Shown here one piece after another: positions 2,574 through 17,778 of a stretch of DNA of 64,000 nucleotides; the first letter of the stretch is position 1; every line of letters starts with the position of its first letter. Origin of the DNA: Ignavibacteria bacterium. GTDB taxonomy: Bacteria > Bacteroidota > Ignavibacteria > Ignavibacteriales > Ignavibacteriaceae. A model generated the notes under the pieces. That model was given only the letters and a program-made list of their open reading frames with translations. It was not told where the DNA came from and made no database searches. A program made the position numbers and the translations under genes. The DNA is taken from assembly GCA_030684555.1 (NCBI GenBank), contig JAUXVN010000040.1, forward strand, positions 62,001 through 126,000, in the 5' to 3' direction.

Positions 2574-3989
2574 ATGTCAAAATTAAAACTTCATCCGGAT
2601 AGATTTTTTGATCCAAATCCGGCAGTTAGAAAAATCGCCCGTGAAATTTATAATACTATAAAATCAATGCCGATTGTTAGTCCGCACGGGCATGTAGATC
2701 CATCAATCTTTGCGGAGAATAAACCGTTTCCGAACCCGACACAGCTTTTCCTTATTCCTGATCATTATATCTACAGAATGCTTTATTCACAAGGACTTGC
2801 GACTATTGAAGAGTTAGGAATACCGGATGTTAATGGAAATGTTTATGAATCAGATCCAAAAAAAATCTGGAAGATTTTCGCATCAAATTATTACTTGTTT
2901 AATGGAACACCTTCGGGTGTTTGGCTTGATTATGAGTTTAGTAAAGTATTTGGAATCAAAGAAAAACTAAACGAAAAGAATGCATTTAAGATTTATGATC
3001 AGCTTCAGGCAAAAATAAATTCAAAATCGTTTTTACCTCGAACGTTATTTGATAAATTTAACATCGAAGCTTTGACCACAACTGATGCGGCTTATGATAA
3101 CCTGGAACATCACAAAAGCATTAAAGATTCAGGTTGGAAAGGGAAAATAGTTCCTTGTTTCAGACCTGATGGAGTAACCGATCTTTCGAATCCAAAATGG
3201 AAAGAAAATTTAGTTCTACTGGAAAAATCAGTTGGATACAAAATAACCAATTACAAAAAATTCGTGCATGCACTTGAGGAACGGAGAGAATTTTTCAAAT
3301 CAATGGGGGCAACCTCAACTGATCATGGAGTTTTTTCACCCTACACACATGAACTAACTCTGAAAAAAGCTGAATCAATATTTCAGAATGCGCTTAAGAA
3401 TAAATCCACTGGCGAAGACGCTAAGTTATTTACAGCACACATGCTGATGGAAATGGCACGAATGAGTATTGATGATGGCTTAACGATGCAAATACATCCC
3501 GGCTCTTATAGAAATCATAATGAGATTATTTATAATAAATTCGGACTTGATAAAGGATGTGATATCCCTATGCAAACAGAATTTACATTTAATCTCAAAG
3601 AGCTATTGAACAAATACGGGAACAATAAAAATCTGACAGTCATCATTTTCACACTTGATGAAACTGCTTATTCACGTGAATTAGCACCTCTTGCAGGGCA
3701 TTATCCTGCAATGAAACTTGGACCCGCCTGGTGGTTTCACGATAGCATTGAAGGAATGACACGTTACAGACAGATGGTCACGGAGACAGCAGGTTTCTAT
3801 AATACAGTCGGATTTAATGATGATACTCGCGCATTCGTTTCTATTCCAGCGAGACATGATGTCGCACGAAGAGTTGATTCAAATTTCCTAGCGGGATTAG
3901 TCGCCAAACATATTATCAGCAAAAATGAAGCATTACTTCTGGCAAAAGAACTTACATATAACTTGGTAAAAAAAGCATACAAACTATAG
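2574..3989 (+). CDS. uxaC: uronate (glucuronate/galacturonate) isomerase
   Basis: The 471-residue product has the usual length of UxaC. The N-terminal SPHGHVDP motif provides the metal-binding HxH (His38 and His40), and the AWWFHDS segment around residues 383-389 is typical of this amidohydrolase-superfamily enzyme. It converts D-galacturonate to D-tagaturonate, and D-glucuronate to D-fructuronate, in the cytoplasm. The next gene is a tagaturonate epimerase, so galacturonate is the likely main substrate. Only 15 bp separate the two genes. Confidence 0.95.
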   Translation: MSKLKLHPDRFFDPNPAVRKIAREIYNTIKSMPIVSPHGHVDPSIFAENKPFPNPTQLFLIPDHYIYRMLYSQGLATIEELGIPDVNGNVYESDPKKIWKIFASNYYLFNGTPSGVWLDYEFSKVFGIKEKLNEKNAFKIYDQLQAKINSKSFLPRTLFDKFNIEALTTTDAAYDNLEHHKSIKDSGWKGKIVPCFRPDGVTDLSNPKWKENLVLLEKSVGYKITNYKKFVHALEERREFFKSMGATSTDHGVFSPYTHELTLKKAESIFQNALKNKSTGEDAKLFTAHMLMEMARMSIDDGLTMQIHPGSYRNHNEIIYNKFGLDKGCDIPMQTEFTFNLKELLNKYGNNKNLTVIIFTLDETAYSRELAPLAGHYPAMKLGPAWWFHDSIEGMTRYRQMVTETAGFYNTVGFNDDTRAFVSIPARHDVARRVDSNFLAGLVAKHIISKNEALLLAKELTYNLVKKAYKL

Positions 3990-4004
3990 AGAACAGATAA
4001 AACT

Positions 4005-5570
4005 ATGAAACAAGAACCACTACAAGACGAAGTACAATCAAATCACCCGATGGAAAAACTTTCTTTGAATAAAGATTTTTTTAAGAAATTCGGAATTGAA
4101 ATTTATCCTCAATCAATTAGATCCAAAGAAGGAACAACTTTTCTTATTGGGCGGAAGAAGTTAGATAAATATTTGTATCTCATTTCAAGCAAAAATGAAA
4201 CAGATATTTTAGAAAGATTTATTGGTGATTTATTGAATCCCGATAATGGAGCAGATCTTTTAATAAAAAGATGCTACTTGAATACACCAAATCGGATGTT
4301 GCTTCAAGTTTATTTTGAATTCACAAATCCAAAAGTACTTGGATTAAGTAACTCATTCGGATTTGGAGATCGAATTGGGTTAGCAAACGCAGGGCATATT
4401 CGCTCATTACAGGGAAGTGATTTCAAACCGATACTTGCCCAGCAATCAATAAGAGAACTCACACGCACAAACAGAAACCCTGAAGAGATATTGAATGCTG
4501 CTGTATGGGCTGTATTTCAAGAAGGATATGAAAACGGCTTCGGTGCAGATGCTGATCATTTAAAGACAACCGAAGATATTGGCTTAATGGTTCGTGCAGG
4601 TTTCACAATGTTCACTTTTGATCCGGGGGAATTTGTAATAAATGAAGCAGATATTCTTGATGAGAAAGACCTTGATGAAAAAATAAAATCAATAGATTGG
4701 AAAACTTTAAACTCAGATGTTGATGAATTGTCCTCTCTGTATCAAAAAGAAAATATTATTATTTCAGATACACTTACTCTTACACCAAGTTCACTCGACT
4801 TCAAGCGCGCAGTTGTTAAATACGGTAATGCAATTGCTCACATAAATAAGCTCTATGATCATCTGAAATCGATGTATCCGGACTATGAGTCTGAAGTTGA
4901 AATATCAGTCGATGAAACAGATTCTGTGACTTCACCATTTGAACATTTTTTCATTGCAGGGGAATTAAAACGATTGAATGTTCAATTAATAAGTTTAGCT
5001 CCACGTTTCGTCGGTGCTTTTGAAAAGGGGATTGATTATAGAGGTGATTTGAATTTATTCAAAGAAGAGTATCTCAAACATTTATCAATAATTAAATATT
5101 ATGGCAGTTATAAAATAAGCCTTCATTCCGGTAGCGATAAATTTTCAGTTTACAAGGTTATTGGTGAATTAAGTAATGCTTATACCCACGTAAAAACCGC
5201 CGGGACAAGTTATCTTGAAGCACTAAAAGTATCAGCATTAAAAAATCCATCGCTATTTCGGGAGATACTTGATTTTTCGAGAAGTATTTATGAATCAGAA
5301 AAAAAGACTTATCATGTCTCGGCTGATTTAAATAGTCTAAAACCAGCAAAAGAATATAATGATGAAGAATTACTCAATCTATTTACAAACGATGATTGTC
5401 GACAAATACTTCATGTCTGCTTTGGTAGAGTTTTAACAGATAAAGATAGTTTAGACAATTTAATCTTCAAAGAAAGATTAGTAAAGTGTCTTAATGAATT
5501 CGAAGAAACGCATTATGAAATTTTAATTAACCATTTTAAAAAACATTTAGAACCATTTCGACAATTATGA
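4005..5570 (+). CDS. uxaE: tagaturonate epimerase (UxaE type)
   Basis: The 521-residue protein carries the family's conserved blocks: FGFGDRIGLANAGHIRS, then AQQSIRELTRTNRNPEEI, then GFGADADHLKTTEDI (about residues 178-192), then TFDPGEFV. UxaE, first described in Thermotoga, epimerises D-tagaturonate to D-fructuronate. This gives a galacturonate route that bypasses UxaB/UxaA and joins the glucuronate branch. It is downstream of uxaC and overlaps the aldolase gene by 4 bp (ATGA), suggesting translational coupling. The N-terminal ~20 residues are poorly conserved in character, so a later start such as Met16 is possible. Confidence 0.88.
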   Translation: MKQEPLQDEVQSNHPMEKLSLNKDFFKKFGIEIYPQSIRSKEGTTFLIGRKKLDKYLYLISSKNETDILERFIGDLLNPDNGADLLIKRCYLNTPNRMLLQVYFEFTNPKVLGLSNSFGFGDRIGLANAGHIRSLQGSDFKPILAQQSIRELTRTNRNPEEILNAAVWAVFQEGYENGFGADADHLKTTEDIGLMVRAGFTMFTFDPGEFVINEADILDEKDLDEKIKSIDWKTLNSDVDELSSLYQKENIIISDTLTLTPSSLDFKRAVVKYGNAIAHINKLYDHLKSMYPDYESEVEISVDETDSVTSPFEHFFIAGELKRLNVQLISLAPRFVGAFEKGIDYRGDLNLFKEEYLKHLSIIKYYGSYKISLHSGSDKFSVYKVIGELSNAYTHVKTAGTSYLEALKVSALKNPSLFREILDFSRSIYESEKKTYHVSADLNSLKPAKEYNDEELLNLFTNDDCRQILHVCFGRVLTDKDSLDNLIFKERLVKCLNEFEETHYEILINHFKKHLEPFRQL

Positions 5571-15969: not shown

Positions 15970-16584
15970 ATGAAAAAAATGTTTGTTATAATTTTATTAT
16001 TAATTGCTGCAGGCTGTACTTCGGTTGAGAAGATTAATCGAAATAACTTGTCGTCACAATCGTTTTCAAAAGATCAAATAAGTCTTGTAATGGCAGCTGA
16101 TTCTTTAACACCAATGAGGGTGTTAAGTATTAATAATAATGTGGATTCGCTTATACTTAGATCACAATCACTTGATGTAGTGGTTAATCCATCTGATCCC
16201 GTACTTCAGAATTTAGTGAAAAGACTATATGCTACGGTTAACGACAGTTTAACTGCCGGAGTTGGTATTGCTGCGCCCCAAGTAGGAATTCTTAAAAACA
16301 TCATCTGGGTTCAGCGATATGATAAACCCGGTTTCCCGTTTGAAGTTTACCTTAATCCCAAAATTAAACAATACACAAAAAAGAAATTGAACTGGTTAGA
16401 AGGATGCCTTTCAATACCGGGAAGAAGTGATACAACTAAAACACGTTCATTTGCTATTTTATTAGAGTATGATCAGCTCGATAAGTCACATCAGATCGAA
16501 ATGGTTGAGGGATTTACTGCAATCATCTTTCAACATGAAATTGATCATCTAAATGGAATTCTTTATTTAGATAGATTAAAGTGA
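15970..16584 (+). CDS. peptide deformylase-like lipoprotein
   Basis: The 204-residue protein has all three deformylase motifs: GVGIAAPQVG (97-106), EGCLSIPG (Cys146) and FQHEIDHLNG (metal ligands His189 and His193, Glu190 catalytic). It also has a lipoprotein signal with lipobox IAAGC, Cys16 as the lipidated residue, and a ~75-residue linker before the domain. Ordinary deformylases act on nascent chains in the cytoplasm, so a membrane-anchored, exported one is unexpected. The catalytic set is intact, so an envelope-localised metallo-amidase or formyl-peptide hydrolase is plausible. It probably forms an operon with the ATP-grasp gene 33 bp downstream. Confidence 0.85.
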   Translation: MKKMFVIILLLIAAGCTSVEKINRNNLSSQSFSKDQISLVMAADSLTPMRVLSINNNVDSLILRSQSLDVVVNPSDPVLQNLVKRLYATVNDSLTAGVGIAAPQVGILKNIIWVQRYDKPGFPFEVYLNPKIKQYTKKKLNWLEGCLSIPGRSDTTKTRSFAILLEYDQLDKSHQIEMVEGFTAIIFQHEIDHLNGILYLDRLK

Positions 16585-16617: not shown

Positions 16618-17778
16618 ATGTTCATCACCGATAAACCTTATATATCACATTTATTACAAAGCACTATTGAGAGTAACGGCTATAAAGTTCTAAAGAATGA
16701 GTTTGCTGAAGCACACGGTTTTAATAAAACTGAACTCTTATTAAATGAAGATGACTTTATAGAATTATTCAAAAAAAATGAAAAATTATGTACTAATTCC
16801 GAAAATTGTATAGAATGGATTAACAAGAATTTATCTTTTTCTGAACTTCCAAAACTCATAAATGTATTTAAGGATAAAGTCAAATTTAGAGATTTGGTAA
16901 AACACCTTTATCCAAATTTTTATTATCGTGAATTGGTATTTAATGAATTAAAGAGTTTTGATATCAAGTCAATCAACATGCCTTTTGTGGTTAAACCTTC
17001 AATTGGCTTTTTAAGTCTCGGAGTTTATAAAATCAGCAATGAAGTAGATTGGATAAAAACTCTAACTTTGATTGATGAGGATCTTTTAAAATTCAAATCT
17101 ATGTTTCCTAAGGCGGTTCTCAATACAACGAATTATATTATAGAAGAGTATATTGAAGGAACTGAATATGCCTTTGATGCCTACTTTAATGATGTGGGAG
17201 AACCTGTAATACTAAATATTATGAGGCACATTTTTGCTTCTGAAACGGATACGAGTGACAGACTTTATATAACATCCCAAAAAATTATTGAAGAGAATGA
17301 GCCGGTTTTCAAAAATTTTCTAAAAGAAATCGGGGACATTCTAAAAATTAAAAATTTTCCGCTACATGTAGAGGTAAGAATTAATAATTCTAAAATTATT
17401 CCGATTGAAATAAATCCTATGCGATTTGCCGGATGGGGAACAACCGATATCGCTTACTATGCTTATGGTATTAATTCATACGAATATTTTTTGGAAAATA
17501 AAAAACCGGATTGGGAAATTATTTCTGCTGAAAAAGAAGGTTTGATTTACAGCATAATAGTGCTTGATAAACCAAACGTTATTCCAACTGAAGTTATTAA
17601 AAGTTTTGATTATGAAAAATTAAAGTCAAGATTTGAACACGTACTTGAACTCCGTGAAACAGATATTAAAAAATATCCGATTTTCGGATTCGTTTTTACC
17701 GAAACAAGAGAAGAAAATTTTTCTGAATTGGATGCTATTTTGAAGAGTGATCTAACTGAGTTTATTACTACTTTTTAA
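16618..17778 (+). CDS. ATP-grasp domain protein, function unknown
   Basis: The 386-residue protein shows the ATP-grasp pattern: MPFVVKPSIGFLSLGV (about residue 120, nucleotide-binding Lys), YIIEEYIEGTEYAFDAYF (about 171-188) and PIEINPMRFAGWG (about 261-273, metal-binding Glu and Asn). This fold joins a carboxylate to an amine or thiol using ATP. The N-terminal third is not clearly related to a named family, and the ~90-residue C-terminal extension is also unassigned. No natural-product genes flank it. Pairing with an exported deformylase-like protein gives no clear role. Confidence 0.7.
   Translation: MFITDKPYISHLLQSTIESNGYKVLKNEFAEAHGFNKTELLLNEDDFIELFKKNEKLCTNSENCIEWINKNLSFSELPKLINVFKDKVKFRDLVKHLYPNFYYRELVFNELKSFDIKSINMPFVVKPSIGFLSLGVYKISNEVDWIKTLTLIDEDLLKFKSMFPKAVLNTTNYIIEEYIEGTEYAFDAYFNDVGEPVILNIMRHIFASETDTSDRLYITSQKIIEENEPVFKNFLKEIGDILKIKNFPLHVEVRINNSKIIPIEINPMRFAGWGTTDIAYYAYGINSYEYFLENKKPDWEIISAEKEGLIYSIIVLDKPNVIPTEVIKSFDYEKLKSRFEHVLELRETDIKKYPIFGFVFTETREENFSELDAILKSDLTEFITTF

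Follow-up and report, generated by a model that had tools for sequence, protein, structure and literature searches.

A predicted exported peptide deformylase in Ignavibacteria and its relatives among the Bacteroidota

The locus and its product

The stretch of DNA analysed here (the window) comprises 64,000 nucleotides from an Ignavibacteria bacterium (GenBank assembly GCA_030684555.1, contig JAUXVN010000040.1, positions 62,001 to 126,000 of the forward strand). Table 1 presents an overview of the gene under study, the features of its product and two further genes of the window. By profile search, residues 61-204 of the product match the peptide deformylase (PDF) family PF01327 with an E-value of 3e-32 and 111.8 bits against a cut-off of 22.8. 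The original prediction that all three deformylase motifs are intact holds, and the family patterns GxGxAAxQ, EGCxS and QHExDHLxG are all present. Its score lies below the curated cut-off of all six matching NCBIfam models, for example TIGR00079 (97.6 versus 103.95) and NF001159 (101.4 versus 125).

Table 1. Positions in the window of the PDF gene, its features and two other genes
Feature	Position	Strand	Basis
Exported peptide deformylase gene (predicted), 204 aa + stop	15970..16584	+	ATG-start ORF, PF01327 match
Predicted lipoprotein signal peptide, residues 1-15	15970..16014	+	lipobox pattern, relatives
Cys16 codon, predicted lipidation site	16015..16017	+	lipobox pattern
Linker, residues 17-48	16018..16113	+	alignment, AlphaFold model
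Met49 ATG, possible internal start under a rival reading	16114..16116	+	ORF reading, alignment
Peptide deformylase domain	16114..16581	+	PF01327, AlphaFold model, Foldseek
Motif I GVGIAAPQ, residues 97-104	16258..16281	+	sequence, alignments
Clade signature IWVQRYDK, residues 112-119	16303..16326	+	alignments
Motif II EGCLS, residues 144-148; metal ligand Cys146	16399..16413	+	sequence, alignments
Motif III QHEIDHLNG, residues 188-196; metal ligands His189, His193; catalytic Glu190	16531..16557	+	sequence, alignments
ATP-grasp gene, just after the PDF gene	16618-17778	+	PF13535
Sole Lgt match of the genome	50021-50797	+	PF01790

The closest sequences in the PDB are peptide deformylases, led by the Leptospira entries 1szz and 1sv2. 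An AlphaFold model of the protein has a mean pLDDT of 84.9, with values below 50 at residues 17-27, and all 50 of the 50 Foldseek matches listed for this model are PDFs; the TM-score of the top match, 6jf7, is 0.87 relative to the target and 0.66 relative to the query. Cysteine occurs twice in the protein, as Cys16 and as the metal ligand Cys146, and the GC content of its gene (0.341) is close to that of the window (0.343).

A housekeeping Def works in the cytoplasm in association with the ribosome, has no leader and carries a C-terminal extension. The window PDF begins with a lipobox leader and extends 11 residues beyond the last histidine of motif III, compared with 42 in the Def of the same genome. 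Since the C-terminal part of E. coli PDF serves in ribosome binding, the short C-terminus fits a loss of that interaction.

Export signal and start codon

The N-terminus of the window PDF, MKKMFVIILLLIAAGC, fits a lipoprotein signal with Cys16 as the lipidated residue. It combines a basic N-region, a hydrophobic stretch and the lipobox. A lipobox pattern of the PROSITE type, applied by script, matches 8 of the 18 proteins in alignment A1, namely the window PDF and each of the seven Ignavibacteria-type relatives. In these eight the cysteine lies between positions 16 and 18 and the lipobox occupies the same aligned place. The lipobox, originally predicted at Cys16, is a common property of this group. 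The pattern matches none of the ten remaining A1 proteins and none of 52 other, mostly housekeeping PDFs, even with any start codon allowed. Elsewhere its specificity can be gauged from the window itself, where 3 of 48 ATG-started ORFs of at least 100 aa match, the window PDF among them, and from shuffling residues 2-40 of the protein, which gave 116 chance matches in 20,000 trials. The genome encodes both Lgt (PF01790) and LspA (PF01252), each by one match above cut-off; the Lgt gene happens to lie in the same window.

The start codon deserves scrutiny. Met49 is a Met in the window PDF and in all seven Ignavibacteria-type relatives, and it aligns with canonical PDF starts. Most other clade members do not have it, and these carry leaders. 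Upstream of the PDF domain pN/pS is 0.57 versus 0.19 within it, values that are only indicative as synonymous sites are near saturation. With the lipobox aligned in the window PDF and its seven relatives, and the pattern matching none of the 52 other PDFs, it is improbable that the export signal results from a wrongly assigned start codon. Translation from downstream of the signal, which would undo the original prediction, is disfavoured by the conservation of signal and lipobox among relatives, although Met49 is conserved too.

In Bacteroidota, an acidic run after the lipoprotein cysteine is a signal for surface export. Position +2 of the window PDF is Thr and no acidic run was seen after Cys16, from which we would guess that the anchor faces the periplasm.

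A second deformylase gene in addition to the housekeeping def

The genome (99.97% complete) has two matches to PF01327, the window gene at 114 bits and a gene on contig C11 at 174 bits. The latter encodes a canonical Def of 184 aa and is directly followed by fmt: the formyltransferase gene, with both Fmt domains (PF00551 and PF02911), starts at the base after the def stop codon. A housekeeping def is therefore found elsewhere in the genome. Together with the conserved signal, this separate canonical gene gives good support, by sequence alone, to the original proposal that the window PDF is an exported protein and not the cytoplasmic housekeeping deformylase.

Copy numbers in related genomes follow the same arrangement. 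Seven genomes with the exported PDF (G000, G001, G007, G023, G032, G042 and G044) have at least two PDF matches each, the nine such genomes of the phylum sample have two or three PDFs each, and in family f27 all 84 genomes with the exported PDF have at least two. Among the 64 genomes of f27 without it, 61 have one PDF, one has two and two have none. Wherever copy number was checked, a count that leaves out the genome of L007 and those of L010-L019, the exported PDF gene accompanies at least one other PDF. As a separate observation, G448 of family f27 (99% complete, 2.4 Mb, 50 contigs) has zero PF01327 matches, although def is regarded as essential; the gene may truly have been lost or may fall in a gap of the assembly.

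Clade, distribution and leader types

A scan of genome contigs identified 17 relatives. Genome searches covered the phylum of the window and placed the exported PDF gene in 8 of 164 genomes of its order (E <= 1e-40), in 9 of 395 genomes drawn from the phylum, counted with our own cut at 170 bits (the ninth match scores 174 and the next 112), and in 84 of 148 genomes of family f27, which may be Weeksellaceae-like. In a tree of 91 PDF domains, the 26 proteins labelled as exported fall on one side of a branch with support of 100/99. The label had been assigned from search matches before the tree was built; the other domains were 55 further PDFs and 10 of 21 viral loci, with the duplicates L002, L050-L058, L080-L083, L086 and L088 and the other 11 viral loci left out. 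The window PDF lies inside this supported clade and has both the IWVQRYDK-type signature and an N-terminal export leader.

Leader hydropathy reaches at least 2.0 in 55 of 58 distinct clade members, and the other three, at 1.62 to 1.95, are signal-peptide-like too. None of 25 scorable PDF ORFs outside the clade reaches 2.0 (25 of 73 such ORFs were usable, the other 48 lacking a start 60 or more residues before motif I). In the clade member L121 a leader is present only if translation begins at a non-ATG codon.

The kind of leader differs by branch. The lipobox leader is confined to the Ignavibacteria-type branch, ordinary signal peptides occur in the PDFs of Emticicia (L010), L011 and family f27, and in L012-L014 a Cys lies close to the leader without fitting the lipobox pattern. 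Five Bacteroidales-type PDFs (L015-L019) form the C-terminal end of longer exported proteins, behind about 330 aa. Since lipobox, ordinary signal peptide and C-terminal placement vary in this way, the trait shared by the clade is export, not lipidation. The original description as an exported lipoprotein thus applies to the whole clade in its first part, whereas the lipobox is limited to one branch.

Two kinds of fusion occur in the clade. Proteins of the L015-L019 type contain an internal stretch resembling PF18962, the C-terminal sorting domain of the T9SS (L017, 26.6 bits; L016, 20 bits; both under the cut-off of 27), which is oddly placed for such a domain, as in L017:4029-5582 (+). The predicted structure of the Bacteroidales fusion was poor, with a mean pLDDT of 38.9. 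L089 (genome G388, minus strand, 3917-5182) joins a DUF1684 domain (PF07920, E 5.6e-44) to an exported PDF that follows it, and this fusion is a possible clue to the role of DUF1684.

Genomic context

Gene neighbours were considered as a clue to function and set aside, as the locus comparison found none common to the main branches of the clade. Within branches there is some agreement: L009 shares WG-repeat and TyrA-like neighbours with the window, and some neighbour genes are common to L012 and L013, to L015 and L016, and to L017-L019. A gene of 136-138 aa precedes the exported PDF on the same strand in L155, L156, L162, L163 and L165, five loci of one family; it was tested in L155, where it proved to be DoxX (PF07681), and in both L155 and L156 its end shares 4 bases with the PDF gene. 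The ATP-grasp gene that follows the window PDF, with a GC content of 0.291 versus 0.343 for the window, was rejected as a partner: the syntenic locus L009 lacks it and has the WG-repeat gene directly after the PDF.

A mobile or phage origin was likewise rejected, given that plasmid and viral matches are distant, the viral loci tested fall outside the clade and the GC content equals that of the window. A tblastn search with P0001 matched 130 plasmid records, all below 60% identity and at 29.5-39.2% among the matches listed (the best 25 of 130). In a Nonomuraea H2 plasmid record 93% of P0001 was covered, the matching stretch being without annotation. The 21 viral loci are weaker matches, and the 10 of them placed in the tree all lie outside the exported clade.

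Active site, pocket and the Asp sub-branch

Residues G97, V98, G99, Q104, R116, D118, G145, L147 and S148, as well as I186, Q188, H189, E190, H193 and G196, do not vary among the 58 clade members. The signature IWVQRYDK is invariant across the 18 rows of A1 and looser among all 58 members, with Leu at residue 113 in 13 of them and, at residue 117, Tyr in 19 and Phe in 37.

The metal ligand at position 146 is Cys in 37 of 58 members, the window PDF included, and Asp in 21, where EGDLS replaces EGCLS. A single branch of modest support (SH-aLRT 86, quick tree) separates the Asp-type PDFs (L135-L147, L090-L096 and further loci of family f27) from the rest, which makes this one change on the tree. 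All 21 have a cysteine-free domain, compared with one to five cysteines in each of 58 housekeeping-like domains. Since the remaining catalytic residues are kept, we read the Asp type as a working two-His, one-Asp site and not as decay. For Salmonella Def, Cys90 is reported to be needed for activity and to be S-nitrosylated by NO, and the iron form to be H2O2-sensitive (PMC7683392); given these sensitivities, it would make chemical sense for an exported branch to give up the thiol. No report of Cys-to-Asp PDF variants was found among the papers listed by the literature search.

The positions that we take to be equivalent to E. coli I86, E87, R97 and L125 are W, L, S and F in the window PDF. With these changed, the binding of Met-peptides may differ. 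In the clade the pocket is hydrophobic at the equivalents of L125 (F or Y) and C129 (I).

Proposed function and alternatives

Deformylation is understood as a cytoplasmic, co-translational step. Our preferred reading, which we hold to be somewhat more probable than its opposite, is that the window PDF is an envelope-anchored peptide deformylase acting on N-formyl-Met ends missed by the ribosome-bound enzyme. The protein would be exported, cut by signal peptidase II and lipidated at Cys16, and a flexible linker would hold it on the membrane, probably facing the periplasm. There the metal site of Cys146, His189 and His193, with Glu190 as general base, would take the formyl group off N-formyl-Met ends. 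Likely targets would be membrane proteins of N-out topology and fragments of signal peptides, both made under SRP and never reached by the ribosome-bound enzyme. Once deformylated, these N-termini would become open to aminopeptidases and turnover. As aminopeptidases are blocked by formylated N-terminal ends, the benefit could be turnover or recycling of envelope proteins and signal peptides.

The fold, intact motifs, export signal, conserved clade and separate canonical def are shown by the sequence, and beyond it we infer location, activity, substrate and benefit. The reading is favoured by the intact motifs and fold, by catalytic residues (Gln, Glu and the two His) that are the same in every one of the 58 members, by the conserved lipobox, by the encoded Lgt and LspA and by the exported clade at 100/99, with strongly hydrophobic leaders in 55 of its 58 members. 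A canonical def beside fmt, the additional PDF in all 84 genomes of f27 that have the gene, the short C-terminus and the block that SRP imposes on deformylation also support it. On the last point, Ranjan et al. 2017 (PMC5454389) report that SRP bound to a signal sequence prevents deformylation, argue that N-out membrane proteins stay formylated and out of reach of PDF, and add that freed signal peptides may escape deformylation too. Counted against the reading are the scores below six NCBIfam cut-offs, the changed pocket positions, the sparseness of the gene (8/164), the conserved Met49, the non-ATG leader of L121 and the lack of a neighbour common to the main branches that would back a pathway.

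Several alternatives bear on the same evidence; the original proposal had named formylated secreted peptides or another envelope amide as possible substrates. The altered equivalents of I86, E87, R97 and L125, the scores under all six NCBIfam models, the clade's own signature between motifs I and II and the DUF1684 fusion in one relative would each suit an exported metalloamidase that cuts some other small envelope amide, such as a short peptide or a sugar with an N-formyl or N-acyl group, in place of N-formyl-Met ends. We regard this as unlikely, for the motif residues are kept in 58/58 except for the Cys/Asp ligand and the pocket remains hydrophobic at the L125 and C129 equivalents. More doubtful still is that the enzyme deformylates formyl-peptides outside the cell, either as food or so that receptors of a host or predator do not detect the cell's own peptides. 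Secreted, non-lipidated versions and fusions do exist, and bacterial formyl-peptides are known immune signals (PMC5454389); this idea is conceivable for the secreted branches. The Ignavibacteria type, however, looks membrane-anchored, its records are environmental MAGs by title, and no transport or peptidase neighbour common to branches was found.

We give very little credence to the remaining two. A cytoplasmic accessory PDF that truly starts at Met49, with the upstream frame irrelevant, would explain why this residue is shared among the Ignavibacteria-type proteins at the canonical start, but the upstream frame is open, with the pN/pS noted above and the lipobox kept in 8/8, leaders occur where Met49 is absent, and in five relatives the PDF is the C-terminal portion of a longer exported protein. 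Just as improbable is a decoy that binds natural PDF inhibitors such as actinonin outside the cell. Accessory PDFs are reported to lower actinonin susceptibility in Vibrio (PMC12690207), yet positions that contact actinonin are changed in the window PDF (R97>S, I86>W, E87>L, L125>F); in that same paper R97Y strongly raised the actinonin MIC in Vibrio, with no or intermediate effect for E87Q and L125F. A decoy, moreover, would not need the catalytic Glu, and Glu190 is invariant in 58/58.

Taking the envelope deformylase reading to the level of the clade, it is conceivable, if on balance doubtful, that N-terminal protein processing in Bacteroidota and Ignavibacteria includes a branch dedicated to the envelope, in which exported deformylases remove formyl-Met caps outside the cytoplasm. 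In part of this branch the near-universal Cys ligand would have become Asp and all domain cysteines would have been shed, leaving a centre of two His and one Asp that would suit an oxidising compartment. Signal sequences are shielded from deformylation by SRP, and an exported deformylase makes the resulting question testable by a one-gene deletion in a culturable member. The Asp sub-branch, in turn, offers a natural experiment on the reasons for an oxidation-sensitive Fe-Cys site in PDFs.

Comparison with known systems

No description of an exported, secreted or periplasmic PDF was found among the titles and abstract starts of the literature covered, most subscription papers being beyond that coverage, and none of the papers listed on Weeksellaceae and secretomes mentions peptide deformylase. 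Of two earlier papers, one describes a PDF from an outer-membrane fraction, classed as cytoplasmic, and the other reports a def product in a fraction S3. The accessible text of a 2025 survey of 5,042 genomes (PMC12690207) does not describe exported PDFs: the terms 'lipoprotein', 'extracellular' and 'bacteroid' occur 0 times in it, and 'signal peptide' once, concerning substrates.

The nearest known system is housekeeping Def (PF01327), represented in this genome by the def beside fmt. It shares with the window PDF the fold, the three motifs and the metal site of HExxH plus Cys; the window PDF differs in its export leader and lipobox, the IWVQRYDK signature, the changed pocket positions, the short C-terminus and its separate clade. 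Second PDF copies also occur in related genomes of the window's order (L084, L085 and L087). Unlike the window PDF, these show no leader, have DDC or DEC for EGC in motif II and form a long separate branch of their own; we presume them to be second cytoplasmic PDFs, probably of type III. With lipoproteins processed by Lgt and LspA, the window PDF shares the basic N-region, the hydrophobic stretch and the lipobox with its cysteine at position 16, but its cargo, an N-terminal-processing enzyme, sets it apart from the usual ones. Turning to accessory PDFs such as V. cholerae Def2 and integron-borne PDFs (PMC12690207), these too are extra copies with substitutions at positions 86, 97 and 125, the last being Phe in both the accessory PDFs and the window PDF. 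In contrast to them, the window PDF is predicted to be exported, is chromosomal and has no close plasmid relative.
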